64,000 nucleotides of DNA from Ilumatobacteraceae bacterium (lineage in GTDB: Bacteria > Actinomycetota > Acidimicrobiia > Acidimicrobiales > Ilumatobacteraceae). Each line of letters begins with the position of its first letter. Position 1 is the first letter of the stretch. Of the stretch, positions 327 to 64,000 are shown piece by piece. The position numbers and the translations under genes are program-made. The stretch covers positions 1 to 64,000 of the forward strand of contig JALHOG010000005.1 of NCBI GenBank assembly GCA_022843125.1, given 5' to 3'. The notes below the pieces were generated by a model that worked only from the letters and a program-made list of their open reading frames with translations, made no database searches and was not told the DNA's origin.

Positions 327-1349
327 ATGAGCGGTGCGTCAACGGTGTTCGTCCCAACGGGTGGTCAACGAGCTGCGCTCGAACAGGTTGCACTCGCCGT
401 CACCGCTGGTCCGGTCGACGAACACGGTGACGATGTCCTCGTCCTGGCGATCTGGCCAAACCGGGACAACCGTCGAGTCATCGCGAGCCCGGGGAACAAC
501 GCCATCCGCGCGTCGATCTCCGTCGCCGTCGCTGCCGGCAACACGCGTGCTTGGGCATGCGTCGACGAGTCTCACACCGTCGCCGACCTCCCCGTTTCTG
601 CGCTCCCGGAGATCATCCGGGCTTCGGTCGAGCCCTCAGGTATCCGCTCCGTCCAGGTCGCGGCGATCGGCCACGGCGACGAGGTCGACTGCTACAGCAT
701 GTGGCTGTCGCCGTCGCACACTTTGCCTGACGAGAGCCGCGCCCGGCACGCCGTCCTCGTCTCCCAACTCAGCGCCGCAGCCGATGCCGACCGGGCGCGA
801 GCAGACGAAGCGGCACGACAGGCCGCCGCCGTCGAAGCAGCCCGCATCGCGTCGACCGGCGATCGCACTGCCGCCACGCGCGCCGGATGTGCACAGACCG
901 CTGCCGAACTCCCCGATCGCGAGCAGTTCACCCGCACACTTGCCGCGCTCGAATGCGACGAAGCCGCGGTGCTGGTCCTCGGCATCGACGGCAGCGAGGC
1001 GATCCTCGAGCACCACGGCACCGCCGGGGCGACCGAGGCTCGCGACGTGGTCGCGGCCCGACTGAGCGCATCGGTGCGCAAGCACGACGTGATCAGCTAC
1101 ATCGGGTCCGACACCTTCGCCGTCCTCCTGGTCGGCGTCGACCGCCACACCGCGTTCGACATCTCGCGCCGCCTGCGCGGCACCCTGGCCGAGCCGATCG
1201 ACGGCGAGGGCGCCACCGAGCTCTCGATCAGCGTCGGGCTCGCCCACGAAGATGGCTTGATCGACACCGCCGAGATGTTCGCGGCCGCCACCAGCGCGAT
1301 GCACGACGCACGCCTCGAAGGCGGCTCGCGGATGTTGATCGCCTGCTGA
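327..1349 (+). CDS. Protein with C-terminal degenerate GGDEF domain
   Basis: A 340-residue soluble protein. Residues about 1-150 form an unrecognised alpha/beta domain, perhaps a GAF-like sensor. An Ala/Arg-rich helix (about 150-190) links it to a GGDEF fold at about 195-340. The fold is visible from DREQF at 197, the LVLGIDG strand, and an SVGLA...A..F..A..AMHDA end. The signature loop that should read GGDEF is GSDTF at 260-264, so the catalytic Asp/Glu pair is lost and diguanylate cyclase activity is unlikely. Such domains usually act as receptors, effectors or dead relics. No I-site (RxxD) is evident before the signature. There is no signal peptide or membrane segment. The ATG at 327 starts the longest open frame and lies 85 nt after the previous stop. 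Nothing near it points to a specific signal. Confidence 0.75.
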   Translation: MSGASTVFVPTGGQRAALEQVALAVTAGPVDEHGDDVLVLAIWPNRDNRRVIASPGNNAIRASISVAVAAGNTRAWACVDESHTVADLPVSALPEIIRASVEPSGIRSVQVAAIGHGDEVDCYSMWLSPSHTLPDESRARHAVLVSQLSAAADADRARADEAARQAAAVEAARIASTGDRTAATRAGCAQTAAELPDREQFTRTLAALECDEAAVLVLGIDGSEAILEHHGTAGATEARDVVAARLSASVRKHDVISYIGSDTFAVLLVGVDRHTAFDISRRLRGTLAEPIDGEGATELSISVGLAHEDGLIDTAEMFAAATSAMHDARLEGGSRMLIAC

Positions 1350-1356
1350 CCGGCCG

Positions 1357-2622
1357 TCAGGCAGCGGCCACGGCGCCCGCGCGCTGCAACCGTGCGGACG
1401 TGAGCCAGGCGAAGATCAACAGTCCGGCCGCGACCCCGGTCGCGATGTCGGCAAGGATGTGGAAGCCGGCGCCCTGCTTCACGAAGCCGGATCCGAACGC
1501 CGCCGCGGCGCCGCACAGGCTCAGCGTCAGATCGCCGGTCCCTTGGGCCTCGACACGGGAGTCTGCCGGCACGGAAGCCGTCAGGAGCGTGGTCCCGCCG
1601 ATCAACCCGATGTTCCAGCCGAGGCCGAGCAGGAACAACCCGATGAAGATCATCGCGGGTACGTAGCCGGCGATGACGGCGGACACGGTTCCGATGCCGA
1701 GGACGACGGCGCCCGCCTGGATCGCCCTCACGGCACCGACGCCGGCGACGAAGCGGCCGACCCACGGCGCGAGACCGAACATCCCGAAGATGTGAACGGC
1801 GATCACGTAGGCCGACATGTCGGCGTGCCCGTGATCCTTCATGTGCGGCGGAGTCATCGTCATCACACCGACCATCGCTGCCTGTGATGCTGCCATCGCG
1901 ACCAGGCCGAGCATCGCTCCGGGCGAAGCGCGGATCACCCCATACGAGCGTCGCACCTGGACGAGCGGGCGCGTCCGTTCGGCGTAAGGGTCGGTGCCGC
2001 CGATCGCAACGAGCGGATCGGGTCGCAGCAGTCGCCAGTACACGAGCGCTCCGAGACCGAACAGCAGACCCGCGAACAGGTACGGACCGATGAACTCGTC
2101 GAGCCCGAACCAGGTGCCCACCGTCTTCTGGAACGGCGTGAACACCGGCCCGAACACGGCGCCGAGCGTGCCGATCCAGACGATCGCGCCGATCGCTGTT
2201 GCCCGGCCCTCGGGCGGCGCGAGGTCGGCCGCGACATAACGGGCCTGGAGGGTCGCTGCCTGACCGAACCCGAAGATCGTCATGCCGACGATGAACAGCC
2301 AGAACCAACGGAGTTGGCCGCCGGTGGCGGCGACCATCGAACCGAGCATGCCGAGCGTGAGCGCCATCACGAGCGCCGGGCGACGGCCGCGCCGGCGCAT
2401 CATGGCTGCCAACGGGATCGCGATCATCGCCGAGCCGAGCGTGAACGCCGCGCTGCCGAGACCGGCGAGGCGATCGGAGCCGAGCATGTCCTTGCCGAGC
2501 AGTGACACGACAGCGACGACGCCGGCCACCGCTGCCTGGCCGGGCACTACGGCGATCCGCAACACGTTGAGGGTCCGTCGCTGAAGCGCGATCTGGTCAA
2601 CCGGATCGAGCGTCGACGTCAC
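1357..2622 (-). CDS. MFS transporter
   Basis: About 421 residues with roughly twelve hydrophobic segments in the two-bundle pattern of the major facilitator superfamily. MRRRGRRPALV matches the cytoplasmic loop 2-3 motif (G..RGRR). The substrate cannot be told from sequence. The start is set at a GTG (2620-2622) giving VTSTLDPVD, with an AAGAG a suitable distance upstream; an open frame continues upstream over the uvrA 3' end but shows only antisense-like composition. The stop lies 7 nt from the convergent stop of the GGDEF-like gene, so the two messages end against each other. A central polar stretch (DPYAERTRPLVQ) corresponds to the usual 6-7 loop. Confidence 0.85.
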   Translation of the reverse strand: MTSTLDPVDQIALQRRTLNVLRIAVVPGQAAVAGVVAVVSLLGKDMLGSDRLAGLGSAAFTLGSAMIAIPLAAMMRRRGRRPALVMALTLGMLGSMVAATGGQLRWFWLFIVGMTIFGFGQAATLQARYVAADLAPPEGRATAIGAIVWIGTLGAVFGPVFTPFQKTVGTWFGLDEFIGPYLFAGLLFGLGALVYWRLLRPDPLVAIGGTDPYAERTRPLVQVRRSYGVIRASPGAMLGLVAMAASQAAMVGVMTMTPPHMKDHGHADMSAYVIAVHIFGMFGLAPWVGRFVAGVGAVRAIQAGAVVLGIGTVSAVIAGYVPAMIFIGLFLLGLGWNIGLIGGTTLLTASVPADSRVEAQGTGDLTLSLCGAAAAFGSGFVKQGAGFHILADIATGVAAGLLIFAWLTSARLQRAGAVAAA

Positions 2623-2671
2623 GCCCACACTCTTGCAGCAGATGGTCCGGTCAATACGAACCGGATTGCGG

Positions 2672-5545
<2,874 letters not shown>

Positions 5546-30931: not shown

Positions 30932-31003
30932 GTGACGGATTGGGTCAGACCAACTCCGTCACAACTCGAGCCGTGACGGAGTTGGTCTGACCCAATCCGT
31001 CAC
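30932..31003. repeat. 72-bp near-perfect palindrome, copy 1 of a dispersed element
   Basis: Arms of 31 nt (30932-30962 and 30973-31003) are exact reverse complements. The remaining centre adds CTCGAG with two mismatched pairs around it, so 34 of 36 pairs match. Each arm is itself almost palindromic: GTGACGGA at one end, TCCGTCAC at the other, and GGTCAGACC in the middle. The element fills the gap between the convergent sqr-like gene and polA (whose stop is at 31008). The same element recurs at 43441-43514 with altered bases that keep the pairing. It could act as a bidirectional terminator, but the sequence conservation goes beyond that need. Confidence 0.9.
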
Positions 31004-43440: not shown

Positions 43441-43514
43441 CGTGACGGATTGGGTCAGACCGATTCCGTCACGGCTCGAGCCGTGACGGAATCGGTCTGA
43501 CCCAATCCGTCACG
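43441..43514. repeat. 74-bp perfect palindrome, copy 2 of the dispersed element
   Basis: Positions 43441-43477 and 43478-43514 are exact reverse complements, 37 of 37 pairs, centred on CTCGAG without spacer. It is the same element as at 30932-31003: both share GTGACGGATTGGGTCAGACC, TCCGTCAC and the CTCGAG centre. Where they differ (CAAC versus CGAT, and AACTC versus GGCTC) the pairing is kept in this copy. The trpC stop codon (43510-43512) is inside the right arm, and trpF starts 23 nt beyond the left arm. It would make an extremely stable hairpin in the trpC-trpF message. Confidence 0.95.
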
Positions 43515-59984: not shown

Positions 59985-60621
59985 TGGCCGGGCACATGCC
60001 GACCTCGACGAGGGTGTCGAAGAACTCGCCCGGGGAGGCGTCGATCGTCGTGAAGGCAGTGGTGCCGATCTCCGTGCGGACCTCGACGTCGACACCGTCG
60101 GTGCGGTCACCGCGCGGGAGCAGAGCGCAGTCGTCGAGGTTCCACAGGATCGCCAAGACCGCAGTCGCTCCGTCGGGGACGCGCTGCGGGAGTTCCGTGT
60201 CGGCACCGATCGACGGGTGCCGTGCGGTCGCGAACGCGAGACCGCTCGGGAACTCGCTCGGCTCACCTGGATCGGTGACATCGAAGTCGAGCTCGTTCTC
60301 CGCGAGCACCCACGCCCCGGCGACGCTCGCACCGGGCACGGGCACGACACGCCGCACCTCGACGCCGTTCCAGCCGTCGGCGACCACGCGAGCGACGACG
60401 AGCACCTGATCGTGGCCCTGCAGCGCCGACCACGAACCAGCCGAACCGTCCCCACCGCCGAGCGACGGCCGGAGCACGTGCGGGGACCACCAGACCGCGG
60501 CGATCAGCCCGAACGCGAACACCAGGAGCACGCCGCTGCGGAGCCGGGACCGGCGGGGCACGAGCGTCTCGATCGCTGGATCGAAGTCGTGTCGATCGCT
60601 CGTGGCAGTTGCCGTCATCAT
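59980..60621 (-). CDS. Single-helix membrane protein, function unknown
   Basis: 213 residues. Cytoplasmic tail with RRSRLRSG, one helix (about 30-48), then an extracytoplasmic domain (about 50-213) with two Cys (DDCALL and MCPAT) that could pair. No family recognised. ATG at 60619-60621; a GTG two codons upstream is possible. The start codon is inside the operator-like palindrome at 60619-60644, so regulation by the nearby GntR protein is likely. Confidence 0.6.
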   Translation of the reverse strand: MMTATATSDRHDFDPAIETLVPRRSRLRSGVLLVFAFGLIAAVWWSPHVLRPSLGGGDGSAGSWSALQGHDQVLVVARVVADGWNGVEVRRVVPVPGASVAGAWVLAENELDFDVTDPGEPSEFPSGLAFATARHPSIGADTELPQRVPDGATAVLAILWNLDDCALLPRGDRTDGVDVEVRTEIGTTAFTTIDASPGEFFDTLVEVGMCPAT

Positions 60622-60637
60622 TGGCACATTGTACTAT
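60609..60637 (+). promoter_or_regulatory. Putative promoter of the GntR operon
   Basis: TTGCCG (60609-60614) and TACTAT (60632-60637) with a 17-bp spacer fit a sigma-70-type promoter for the plus-strand genes, 63 nt before the first start. The -10 box lies inside the palindrome that probably binds the repressor. Confidence 0.4.
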
Positions 60638-60644
60638 GCCAATG
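60619..60644. promoter_or_regulatory. Operator-like inverted repeat for the GntR regulator
   Basis: CATTGGCA (60619-60626) and TGCCAATG (60637-60644) are perfect reverse complements, 10 bp apart and in an AT-rich island. It lies between divergent genes and overlaps a -10 box and the start of the minus-strand gene. A GntR/YtrA-type regulator is encoded in the downstream operon, making it the likely binder. Confidence 0.55.
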
Positions 60645-60699
60645 AGCCAATGCAAGACGCAGCCGTTGATGGGCTGCCCGGACGAGGAGGTCGGAGCCG

Positions 60700-61509
60700 A
60701 TGGGGATCGTGGTGCTTCTGCTCGCGTTGCTCGTGGTAGCCGGTGTCGTGGCCCGGTCGGCGCAGCTGGTCACGGCCGGCGGTTGGCTCGCCGAGCCACT
60801 CCCACCCGGCAGCCACGAGGCCTCGGTGCTCGTGCGCTACCTGAGGCGGCACGTCCTCCACCGGCGCATCGGAGCGACCGTCGGCGTGGTGGTCGCGACA
60901 GTCGCCGGCATCCGCCTCTATGGGGAGCTCAACATCGGGATCGGAACGCGCAGCCCGCTCGCCGACATCCTGTTCTGCGGGTTGGCCGGCAGCATCGTCG
61001 GCGCGATGTCGGCCGAGACGTTCCGGCTCAGCGACGACCGCAACGACGTCAGGGCGGCATCGCTGGCCGAGCGGACGCCACTCGTGCCCGTCCGCTTGCT
61101 CGTGCTCAGCCGGGCGCTGACGATCACGTCGTGCCTGGGTGCCGTTGCGATCCTCGTCGTCGCACGCGACGCAGGTCCGCTCGTGATCGCGGCGGCCGGC
61201 GTCGCGGTCGCCGGCGTCGCCGAGGCAACACGGAGCGCGATCACCAGCCGGCCACGGCCCGTCATGACCGACCGCGCTCGATGGGTCGACGACCGGATGC
61301 GCTGGTTCGCGCAGCGGGCCGTCGGCAACCTGCAGCTCGCCGCCGCCTGGCTCCTCGCCGGCTGGGTCGTCTCCAAGACGGGCGACACCGACCACACCCC
61401 CGTCGACGTGTTGCAGGTCGTGACCGTCCTCGGCTGTCTGGCCGCCACCGTCGTCCATCTCCTGCGTGCCTCGCCACGACGCCCTCGCGATTGGGTTGCG
61501 CCCCAGTGA
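60700..61509 (+). CDS. Membrane protein of the GntR operon
   Basis: 269 residues with about six hydrophobic helices (about 2-22, 58-75, 85-105, 135-155, 160-180, 205-225). Cytoplasmic loops contain RLSDDRNDVRAASL. No transporter signature or ABC partner is visible. GAGGAGG-type site (GAGGAGG, 60686-60692) before ATG 60700. The stop overlaps the GntR start (GTGA). Confidence 0.7.
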   Translation: MGIVVLLLALLVVAGVVARSAQLVTAGGWLAEPLPPGSHEASVLVRYLRRHVLHRRIGATVGVVVATVAGIRLYGELNIGIGTRSPLADILFCGLAGSIVGAMSAETFRLSDDRNDVRAASLAERTPLVPVRLLVLSRALTITSCLGAVAILVVARDAGPLVIAAAGVAVAGVAEATRSAITSRPRPVMTDRARWVDDRMRWFAQRAVGNLQLAAAWLLAGWVVSKTGDTDHTPVDVLQVVTVLGCLAATVVHLLRASPRRPRDWVAPQ

Positions 61510-61883
61510 TCGTGCACGTCGATCCGTCGTCGGCGGTCCCGGTGTTCGAGCAACTCCGGATCCAGATCGAGCGCATGATCGCCTCCGGCCACTTGCGGCC
61601 CGGCAGTCGTCTCCCGGCGATACGCGACCTCGCCAACGATCTCGGGCTGGCGCGCGGCACCGTCAACAAGGTGTACGACCTGCTCGCCCGTGACGGCCTG
61701 GTGGCGACCTCGGGGCGCCACGGCACCGTCGTGCTCGTCCCCCCTCCGACCACGACCACCGATGCCGATCTCGACCACGCCGCTGATGCCGTCGCGCTCG
61801 TGGCGCTCCAACTCGGCCGTGACCGCGCCGCTGCACGTCGTGCGCTCGAGGCCGCATTCGATCGCGCAGAACGGTCGCACTGA
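61506..61883 (+). CDS. GntR-family transcriptional regulator, YtrA type
   Basis: 125 residues. Winged helix (about 5-75) with VFEQLRIQIERMIASGHLRPG, LPAIRDLANDLGLARGTVNKVYDLLARDGL. Only a short helical tail (about 85-125) follows, as in the YtrA subgroup, rather than a large effector domain. YtrA proteins usually repress an adjacent membrane-protein or transporter operon, matching the gene upstream. GTG at 61506. Confidence 0.9.
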   Translation: MIVHVDPSSAVPVFEQLRIQIERMIASGHLRPGSRLPAIRDLANDLGLARGTVNKVYDLLARDGLVATSGRHGTVVLVPPPTTTTDADLDHAADAVALVALQLGRDRAAARRALEAAFDRAERSH

Positions 61884-61912
61884 ACCCCCCTGCCCGCTCT
61901 AGCCTCGATCGC

Positions 61913-62629
61913 ATGAGTGCTGCATCGTCCGGGCCACGCTGGGACACCGAGGCCTTGCCGCAGGGTGAGGAGAAGAAGCAGGCGGTGCGCGAGATGTTCG
62001 ACGCGATTGCACCGCGCTACGACCTCGTCAACCGGATCATGACCTTCCGGCTCGACGTCCGGTGGCGCAAGCGAGCCGTCCGCGACCTGCGCCTGCCGGC
62101 GGGCTCGACCGTGCTCGACCTGGCATCGGGCACCGGAGATCTCTGCATCGACCTGCGCGCCGCCGGGCACGAACCGATCTCGATCGACCTGTCGTACGGC
62201 ATGCTCGCCGCCGACCGGTCGGGGGCGCCCAGGGTCCAGGGCGACATCCTCCGCATGCCGTTGCCCGAGTCGTCGGTCGACGGGGTCACGTGCGGGTTCG
62301 CGCTCCGCAACCTCGTCGACCTGCAGTCGTTCTTCGACGAGCTGGCTCGTGTGGTGCGGCCGGGCGGGCGGGTGTCGCTGCTCGACGTCGGGATCCCGAA
62401 GAACCGGTTGATCCGCTTCGGCAACGGCATCTACTTCGGCAAGATCGTGCCGAGGATCGGCGCGCTGCTCTCCGACGGGGCGGCCTACCGCTACCTGCCC
62501 AAGAGCGTGGCCTACCTCCCGCCGGCGCCCGAGATGGTGTCGATGCTCGAACGTGCCGGGTTCACCCACGTCGAGCACGCGCTGCTGTCGGGCGGGCTGA
62601 CGCAGCTCCTGACCGGCACCCGGAGCTGA
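61913..62629 (+). CDS. menG: Demethylmenaquinone methyltransferase
   Basis: 238 residues, UbiE/MenG family. VREMFDAIAPRYDLVNRIMTF and LDVRWRKRAVRDL are family blocks; motif I is VLDLASGTGDLCIDL; the late LDVGIPKN and YLPKSVAYLPPAPEM are also typical. It methylates demethylmenaquinone, the final step of menaquinone synthesis. It is followed 2 nt later by menF, which acts at the other end of the pathway. Confidence 0.92.
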   Translation: MSAASSGPRWDTEALPQGEEKKQAVREMFDAIAPRYDLVNRIMTFRLDVRWRKRAVRDLRLPAGSTVLDLASGTGDLCIDLRAAGHEPISIDLSYGMLAADRSGAPRVQGDILRMPLPESSVDGVTCGFALRNLVDLQSFFDELARVVRPGGRVSLLDVGIPKNRLIRFGNGIYFGKIVPRIGALLSDGAAYRYLPKSVAYLPPAPEMVSMLERAGFTHVEHALLSGGLTQLLTGTRS

Positions 62630-62631
62630 CC

Positions 62632-63846
62632 GTGCGCGCCGTCAGCACGCCCGTCGACGGCGCGCTCGACCTCAACGACGTCGCAGGTGGGGACGGCTAC
62701 CTCTTCGTGCGCGACGGGGTCGGATTCGCCGGGCGTGGCGTGGCGGCCCGTGTTCCCGTCGACGAGGCCGTCGCGTTCCTCGCATCGATCGACCACGACG
62801 ACCAGGTGGGTGGCGCACCCGGCGTGATCGCCCTCGGCGCGATCCCGTTCCTCCCCGGCTCCCCCGCCGAGCTCGTGGTCCCTGAGCTGATCATCGGCAA
62901 GGACGCCGCCGGCCGCATCTGGCGGACCGATGTGGGCGATCCCGGGCTCGACCCCCGGGAACGCTCACATGCCGGTGCGAGCGTTCCCGAGGGTGGAGCC
63001 CGGGATCGCCCACACCTTCCTGGCGCGTTCTCGATCCGGCCGGGGGTAGCGGTCGAGCACTACCTGGCGGCGGTCGCCGCAGCGCGCGACGCCGTGCGCG
63101 ACGGGCGGATGGCGAAGGCGGTCATCGCCCGACCGATCGTCGTCGAGTCGGACCGGCCGATCGACGTCCACGCGGTCCTCCTGCGGCTGAAGGCGAGCTT
63201 CGGGTCGAGCTACCGGTTCTCGATCGACGGCTTCATCGGCGCCTCGCCCGAGCTCCTCGTCGAGGTCGACGGCGATGTCGTGCGGTCGCACCCCTTGGCG
63301 GGCACCACCCGCACCACCGGTGATCCCGAACTCGATGCAAAGCTCGCCGCCGAACTGCACGCCAGCCCGAAGAACCGGATCGAGCACGACGCCGCGATCG
63401 CGATGGTCCGCGACACCCTGCTCCCCTACTGCAGCTACCTCGACTGGGCGCCCGAGCCGTCGATCGTGAAGGTCGCCAACGTCCAGCACCTCGGATCGCA
63501 GGCCGAGGGACGGCTGTCCAAGCCGACACCGTCGGTGATCGAACTCGTGCGTGCGCTGCAGCCGACTCCCGCCGTCGGCGGTCACCCCCGCGAGGCGGCG
63601 ATCGAGCTGATCACCCGCGTCGAGGGCTTCGAGCGTGGTCGCTACGGCGGCACGGTCGGTTGGGTCGATGCGCACGGCAACGGCACCTGGGCGGTGTCGC
63701 TGCGTTGTGCCGAGCTCAGCGCCGATCGGCAGTCCGCACGCCTCGTGGCGGGCGGCGGCATCGTCGCGGACAGCGACCCCGAGAGCGAACTCGCAGAGAC
63801 CCAGGCCAAGTTCCAGGCCATGCTCAGCGCGATCGTCAGGCCGTGA
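62632..63846 (+). CDS. menF: Isochorismate synthase
   Basis: 404 residues. Chorismate-binding domain (about 135-404) with the catalytic Lys162 in MAKAVIARPIV, HPLAGTTRTTGD, KNRIEHDAAIAMVRD, and PTPAVGGHPREAA...GGTVGWVDAHG; Mg-binding Glu residues follow. It makes isochorismate for menaquinone. Residues about 100-128 are encoded by an 84-bp palindrome (62931-63014) and look like an insertion in the linker between N-terminal and catalytic parts (GDPGLDPRERSHAG...). The frame stays open through it. GTG at 62632, 2 nt after menG stop. Confidence 0.92.
   Translation: MRAVSTPVDGALDLNDVAGGDGYLFVRDGVGFAGRGVAARVPVDEAVAFLASIDHDDQVGGAPGVIALGAIPFLPGSPAELVVPELIIGKDAAGRIWRTDVGDPGLDPRERSHAGASVPEGGARDRPHLPGAFSIRPGVAVEHYLAAVAAARDAVRDGRMAKAVIARPIVVESDRPIDVHAVLLRLKASFGSSYRFSIDGFIGASPELLVEVDGDVVRSHPLAGTTRTTGDPELDAKLAAELHASPKNRIEHDAAIAMVRDTLLPYCSYLDWAPEPSIVKVANVQHLGSQAEGRLSKPTPSVIELVRALQPTPAVGGHPREAAIELITRVEGFERGRYGGTVGWVDAHGNGTWAVSLRCAELSADRQSARLVAGGGIVADSDPESELAETQAKFQAMLSAIVRP
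62931..63014. repeat. 84-bp palindromic element inside menF, in frame
   Basis: Arms 62931-62966 and 62979-63014 (36 nt each) are reverse complements at 34 of 36 positions; the 12-nt loop is 62967-62978. Each arm starts or ends with TGTGGGCGATCCCGGG and CGGGAACGCTC. The total is 84 bp, a multiple of three, so removing it leaves menF in frame. It encodes an Arg/Asp/Gly/Pro-rich stretch unlike the flanking sequence. Its bases differ from the two trp/polA-type palindromes, so it is a second element type. Confidence 0.9.
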
Positions 63847-63859
63847 CCGATCGGCGCGC

Positions 63860-63918
63860 AATCCGCACAAAGCGGCTCCGAACCCGGCACGCGGACCTGA
63901 ATCCGCTTTGCGCGGGTT
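63860..63918. terminator. Hairpin between menF and the convergent dehydratase-like gene
   Basis: AATCCGCACAAAGCGG (63860-63875) and CCGCTTTGCGCGGGTT (63903-63918) pair over 16 positions with one mismatch and one wobble; the 27-nt loop has further self-complementary bases (CCGAACCCG with the later CGGGTTCGG gives an alternative fold). It lies between convergent stops. Confidence 0.55.
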
Positions 63919-63928
63919 CGGGCGTGCG

Positions 63929-64000
63929 TCAGGCGGCGATCGTGGCGGGGTCGCAGTTGCTGCCGCAGACGACCACGACCACCCGTTCGGCGAGGGCGGG
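63929..64000 (-). CDS. C-terminal end of a serine/threonine dehydratase-like PLP enzyme (partial)
   Basis: Only the last 23 codons and the TGA (63929-63931) are inside the window. VVVVVCGSNCDPATIA matches the closing strand of threonine/serine dehydratase and racemase proteins (usually VV.VVCGGN.D). The rest lies beyond the window edge. Confidence 0.6.
   Translation of the reverse strand, partial: PALAERVVVVVCGSNCDPATIAA

Follow-up and report, generated by a model that had tools for sequence, protein, structure and literature searches.

Palindromic repeats inside genes

In-gene palindromic repeats are already known from other bacteria. In several species REPs have been found within genes, over half of these in-gene inserts being dimers or groups that code for 20 to 30 residues, and the GTAG and CGTC REPs are short palindromic units, often arranged as inverted dimers, mostly intergenic and in some cases in-gene (PMC3733652, available part). 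The Rickettsia palindromic elements (RPEs) are about 150 bp long, encode a conserved peptide and are read in frame in unrelated genes, with many in-gene copies, according to the available part of PMC10969869. REPINs are described in the accessible portion of PMC3116915 as inverted REP doublets forming a hairpin, with excised or new copies reported for them. The initial annotation of the locus analysed here regarded coding palindromes as known chiefly from Rickettsia, a view that is too narrow, since several other species are named in the available part of PMC3733652. The main text of that paper, as available, makes no mention of “actinobacteria”, “actinomyc”, “streptomyces” or “mycobacter”. 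No in-gene REP report in actinobacteria was present among the literature matches listed for RAYT, REPIN or REP together with actinobacterial words, and none of the publications on Ilumatobacter with palindromes looks related by its title and abstract opening.

The palindrome in the menF gene of an Ilumatobacter-like genome (G000) is probably an in-frame dimer of a REP-like hairpin element, called here family B, that is dispersed in this genome as a unit of about 43 nt with the eye-made consensus GGTGTGAGCGATCATGGG-loop-CCCATGATCGCTCACACC. Like the RPEs, it is read in frame inside a gene; it differs from them, in a comparison by description and not by sequence, as a single in-gene dimer against many in-gene copies. 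In-frame copies in several unrelated genes, as known for RPEs, were sought in the approximately 37% of G000 scanned for long palindromes, and menF was the only such gene. The GTAG and CGTC REP dimers are built on the same plan, and those located in genes code for 20-30 residues compared to 28 in menF. In contrast, no GTAG or CGTC tag is common to 11 aligned family B units (judged by eye), CGTC adjoining only a few copies, e.g. C11:51704 and C13:38429, and the family B stem comprises 18 pairs in the alignment, with 89.9% of the cells paired, against 5-13 for GTAG and 8-9 for CGTC. The menF case therefore matches the REP dimers, as described in the available part of PMC3733652, in plan and size, not in tag or stem length. 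As in REPINs, two palindromic units form an inverted doublet in one hairpin; unlike REPINs, the family B copies seen in G000 look single except in menF, and no family B transposase has been found. A second repeat of this genome, family A, fits the REPIN description well, with a RAYT-like gene alongside. The menF case is thus real and not of a wholly new kind.

The menF gene and its palindrome

The window, i.e. the whole analysed stretch of 64,000 nucleotides, belongs to a draft assembly that totals 5.49 Mb over 183 contigs, with a completeness of about 93% and a contamination of 3.4%. A menF-like isochorismate synthase gene encoding 404 amino acids is located at 62632-63846 on the forward strand. 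Its product exceeds the family cut-off of NCBIfam TIGR00543 and contains the Pfam domain Chorismate_bind at residues 142-393; the start codon was picked by comparison with relatives, and a longer ORF also exists. The best-matching named MenF records carry Ilumatobacter or Acidimicrobiaceae titles, with identities of at most 77%. The gene is preceded by a menaquinone-type methyltransferase gene (61913-62629), and a weaker inverted repeat (63863-63915; arm 13, loop 27, score 10) stands right behind its stop codon.

The gene carries, in a variable linker, a near-perfect palindrome (hairpin) of 84 bp at 62931-63014 (no strand assigned), characterized by palindrome scan, folding and genome comparison. 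The arms of 39 nt are complementary at 36 of 39 positions and are separated by the 6-nt loop TGCCGG (62970-62975, no strand assigned, palindrome scan). The initial annotation was correct in the coordinates and length, and its 36-nt arms with a 12-nt loop represent the same object. The RNA fold reaches -85.8 kcal/mol (z -11), and none of 200 shuffles is equally good. The long-palindrome scan of G000 (2.06 Mb, about 11 kb of it counted twice) yielded 21 palindromes with a score of at least 25, namely 20 of family A and the one in menF, the next best scoring 20. A score of at least 15 was reached by 24 palindromes in the first 1.26 Mb and by none in one second-order Markov control. The palindrome far exceeds chance expectation.

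The linker, T99-Y144, ranges from 32 to 47 residues in 84 MenF genes (commonest length 34) and has 46 residues here. As originally stated, no stop codon interrupts the frame across the palindrome (approximately residues 100-128), and the position is in front of the chorismate-binding domain, which begins at residue 142; the “low-complexity” attributed to the insert is not striking. Comparison with the MenF of relatives, in which the 28 residues had been expected to be absent, agrees with the expectation for the palindrome itself: a comparable one is absent from all 83 other MenF genes examined, none of which exceeds a scan score of 12 (30 in this gene). It does not agree for the length. The palindrome spans 28 codons, but they are no clean net insertion, because this MenF exceeds its three best-matching relatives by just 12 residues (404 amino acids vs 392 in G008, G006 and G002), a net gain of 36 nt, not 84-88 nt.

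Two inverted units in one reading frame

Each arm of the menF palindrome is an imperfect palindrome by itself. The left unit (62929-62971, forward strand), attributed to family B through model R1 and sequence-only profiles (see below), has outermost bases that differ from the family ends. The right unit (62974-63016, forward strand; R1 and profiles) is inverted with respect to the left one and has the ends GGTG...CACC. The 84 bp, previously taken as one repeated unit, are better described as a dimer of a 43-nt unit. The arms are identical at 36/39 positions with one of them inverted and at 27/39 in direct comparison, which points therefore to an inverted duplication of the unit or to two inverted insertions. 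No second family B dimer has been seen in G000; the other copies look single within the approximately 60 nt examined on each side.

Phase 0 of the family B consensus is stop-free, phases 1 and 2 contain stops, and both menF units occupy phase 0. In 11 units outside menF, phase 0 is open in 11/11 on the given strand and in 9/11 on the opposite strand. The phase argument is weak, because neither the menF units nor C19, the copy nearest to them, has a forward stop in any phase. The earlier suggestion of selection keeping the frame open is unsupported, with copies wholly within a predicted gene in 0/12 cases for family B outside menF and copies inside one in 0/20 for family A.

Detection of family B

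BLAST of the 84 bp against G000 and 60 relatives, by which further copies had been expected to appear, gave weak matches only, and the related copies came from other methods. The C19 match has an E-value of 0.009, G016, G026 and others score better, and BLAST alone is no evidence for a family B kinship of the menF palindrome. No comparable hairpin was present in 13 stretches and four more loci taken from the 57 BLAST rows outside G000. The palindrome had no match in viral contigs or plasmids and one, at E 0.7, in phages. A half-site search gave 23 matches compared to 1 in the control; six of them belong to menF and C19 themselves, two others have short hairpins (arms 11 and 9), and the remainder are hairpin-less and coding-like. 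An identity with an Rfam family was likewise rejected: ten matches up to E 1 all lie under the gathering scores, and the best, the microRNA models MIR1437 and mir-339 (E about 5e-6), are taken as an effect of the long perfect hairpin. A possible target-site duplication, CTGGCG on both sides, was set aside, the two occurrences being 101 nt apart and hence not in frame.

Family B was approached from hairpins resembling the menF palindrome, which is a form of selection. In a library of 114 hairpins from G000, one strong match to menF was found, C19:20545, with a score of 42, compared to maxima of 33 and 32 for shuffled palindromes (two sets of 300); C19 was itself selected, having entered the library since its contig came in via a BLAST match. 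The weaker library matches have the word GAGCGATC in common. An exact pattern built on this word finds five loci in G000; its reversed control gives no match, and nine same-genus genomes are free of the pattern. G015 and G016 contain one match each, in sequences that by eye are unlike family B. Among 397 genomes of the order, a unit pattern matches G000 alone; a looser version matches G069 as well, the only one to do so among 99 other genomes. This rarity carries little weight because the pattern was shaped on C19.

A covariance model, R1, has been built from the five pattern loci with menF left out. Searched against its own genome, R1 recovers the right menF unit at E 1.8e-7 and the left one at E 1.6e-4 and adds six further loci at E ≤ 0.01, these E-values being rough owing to a short calibration. 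The search scored 150 of 3831 candidates (150 per genome out of 827-3831 overall), and the copy list may for this reason be incomplete. Matches at E ≤ 0.01 also occur in G001, G004, G008 and G009, and hairpins of G003 reach up to 36.8 bits vs 37.4 for the right menF unit. Because same-genus hairpins come this close, two pairing-independent tests have been made. In a pair-preserving permutation, none of 20,000 permutations of each menF unit was as good as the original, nor was any of 50,000 for each unit with C19 out of training; the training copy C10 gave 1/20,000. Sequence-only profiles from 6, 5 or 4 other copies, searched in 2.06 Mb, place the right unit at ranks 4, 5 and 5 (scores 35.6, 31.1 and 29.9) and the left unit at ranks 6, 6 and 7 (28.2, 24.4 and 24.2), with the first noise entry at 17.2, 18.6 and 21.1, respectively. 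By these sequence scores, the right unit can safely be assigned to family B, clear of noise. The left unit appears to belong to it by a narrow margin (24.2 vs 21.1), together with its mirroring of the right one. The four-copy profile leaves the counted copy C10 within noise (below 21.1).

Stem covariation in 11 aligned units is reached by 0 of 500 shuffles, a score that can also arise from related sequences without selection on structure. The alignment (A3) leaves out C21:57066 (E 0.0015) and C13:82021 (E 0.006), and C12:56777, with an E-value of 0.04, does not figure among the family B copies.

Location of the copies and empty sites

Besides menF, G000 has 12 candidate family B loci: 11 found by R1 at E ≤ 0.01 and C11:79303, intergenic, found by profile. 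One palindromic sequence thus recurs at several unrelated loci, as in a dispersed repeat. Taking the 11 loci together with the weak C12, none of the 12 copies outside menF lies wholly within a gene predicted by the codon scan made for this analysis; all are between predicted genes or span a predicted gene boundary. The expectation of other in-frame copies inside genes has accordingly failed at 12 of 12 loci. Several loci contain the predicted start or stop of the adjoining gene. The C19 copy is located between convergent genes, those on C23 and C35 upstream of predicted genes, and the C35 copy, at hemW, seems to supply the hemW start codon.

The hairpin at hemW is absent in all seven relatives with a close hemW match. 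Compared to G008 the gain is 27 nt (counted by eye) for a unit of 43 nt, and host bases therefore seem to have been lost there, as in menF. The empty-site comparison covers these two sites. The proposal of a mobile or dispersed element thus holds as regards the dispersed copies, the 83/83 MenF genes without it and the empty hemW site (7/7), and finds no support as regards frame selection.

A variant family, TTCTGTGGAAGCGATCATG...CATGATCGCTTCCACAGAA with a core near AGCGATCATG, similar to family B, is found in the same-genus genomes G003 (L337-L341, L343 and L344) and G004 (L345-L347), i.e. in 10 of their 11 stretches (7/8 and 3/3) out of 13 examined, all selected through R1 matches. At L339 of G003 two variant units adjoin, and half-sites are nearby at other loci. 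The empty hemW site together with this variant family favours, from sequence comparison, an amplifying family over fixed terminators.

Another recurrent hairpin, GAACGAGCCCGGGC...GCCCGGGCTCGTTC, occurs in several same-genus genomes (L322, L323, L324, L326, L342; L133:5316-5356), with a similar one in G000, and may be a common terminator. Among the 13 stretches it was present in L342 and L349, and L348 holds neither hairpin type.

Family A and a RAYT-like gene

Family A consists of inverted doublets, 72-85 bp long (GTGACGGAATGGGTCAGACC...), that are dispersed in G000, where 91 half-sites occur; window copies are located at 30932-31003 and 43441-43514. The family is absent from 40 relatives except for one half-site in G004. 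None of the 20 copies examined is inside a predicted gene: 12 are between convergent, 5 between tandem and 1 between divergent genes, 2 being unassignable, and gene ends are often within 8 nt of the element ends. A family A element supplies the codons for the C-terminal residues, VTEWVRPTSSRLEP, of one ORF of 334 amino acids (L234:47-1051). The halves of the eye-made family A consensus are identical at 31/31 positions when inverted and at 26/31 directly, the same plan as in the menF dimer. A sequence kinship between the two was rejected (local score 15 vs a null median of 13 and a 95% point of 18).

A RAYT-like gene with a PF01797 match (C45:42752-43081, L234) is bordered on each side by a family A palindrome, of which the second is truncated by the contig end. 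It is the only Y1-transposase match found in G000 and is flanked by family A, not family B; no transposase or RAYT matching family B was found in this assembly of about 93% completeness. Palindromes beside PF01797 genes of relatives differ in sequence, and 2 of 7 such loci are without any. Family A and the RAYT-like gene constitute a REP/RAYT-like system in this actinobacterium.

Origin of the menF palindrome

If the palindrome is a family B dimer, one unit would have entered the menF linker with the loss of some host bases. An inverted duplication, by fold-back copying or by a second inverted insertion, would then have given the dimer, fold-back copying doing so in one step. The dimer would survive because the linker tolerates a change in length and the frame through the dimer is open; the enzyme would merely carry the extra residues, with no benefit proposed. 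A local inverted duplication by template switching, in which an arm of 36-39 nt was copied back within menF with no dispersed element involved, agrees with the net gain of 36 nt, about one arm, and with arms far more alike inverted than direct. The GC3 values, which like the other codon-use figures rest on few codons, show a native-like outer left arm (9 codons, 0.89, the mean across 462 long ORFs being 0.88) and a right arm at 0.62. However, the codon use of the whole left arm is also poor (GC3 0.69; mean log RSCU 0.00, near the minimum of -0.03 in menF and below the 5% point of 0.16 in the remaining gene), that of the right arm (-0.15) is below every 13-codon window elsewhere in menF (minimum -0.03), and this explanation leaves unaccounted for the fact that each arm is a palindrome with a family B sequence match. 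Template switching by itself is improbable; both processes may have combined, a family B unit being followed by its inverted duplication.

It is also rather unlikely that family B consists of immobile bidirectional terminators or mRNA 3' stems with a favoured sequence, which menF would resemble by convergence. Several copies adjoin gene ends, as C19 does between convergent genes, and the GAACGAGCCCGGGC hairpin shows that another hairpin recurs in the genus, but the C23 and C35 copies are upstream of predicted genes, the menF copy is mid-gene, the hemW site is empty in the seven relatives, and G003 and G004 hold a variant family with, once in G003, two neighbouring units. Retention of the hairpin as a regulatory signal of menF, e.g. 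an attenuator or mRNA processing site, would suit the very stable fold and the 36/39 intact pairs; it is very improbable given 83 of 83 other MenF genes without the hairpin, no Rfam family at gathering score (microRNA models being the best) and no terminator-like site at 60000-64000 in a scan requiring a T run.

The family B dimer remains the preferred reading. A wider proposal, put forward tentatively, is that members of the Ilumatobacter-like genus have in common a REP-like family that changes rapidly, has its core near AGCGATCATG and leaves one phase stop-free. Its dimer, as 28 codons of menF, a gene of the menaquinone (vitamin K) pathway, might then be an independently arisen actinobacterial counterpart of the Rickettsia coding palindromes, moved by a hypothetical enzyme.

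Significance

If the family B reading is true, in-gene palindromic repeats extend to an actinobacterium, and menF would offer a tractable case for studying the entry of a hairpin element into a functional enzyme, because the linker, element-free relatives and sibling copies are all at hand. The analysis reveals REP-like systems in an Ilumatobacter-like genus, one of them with a RAYT-like gene beside it.
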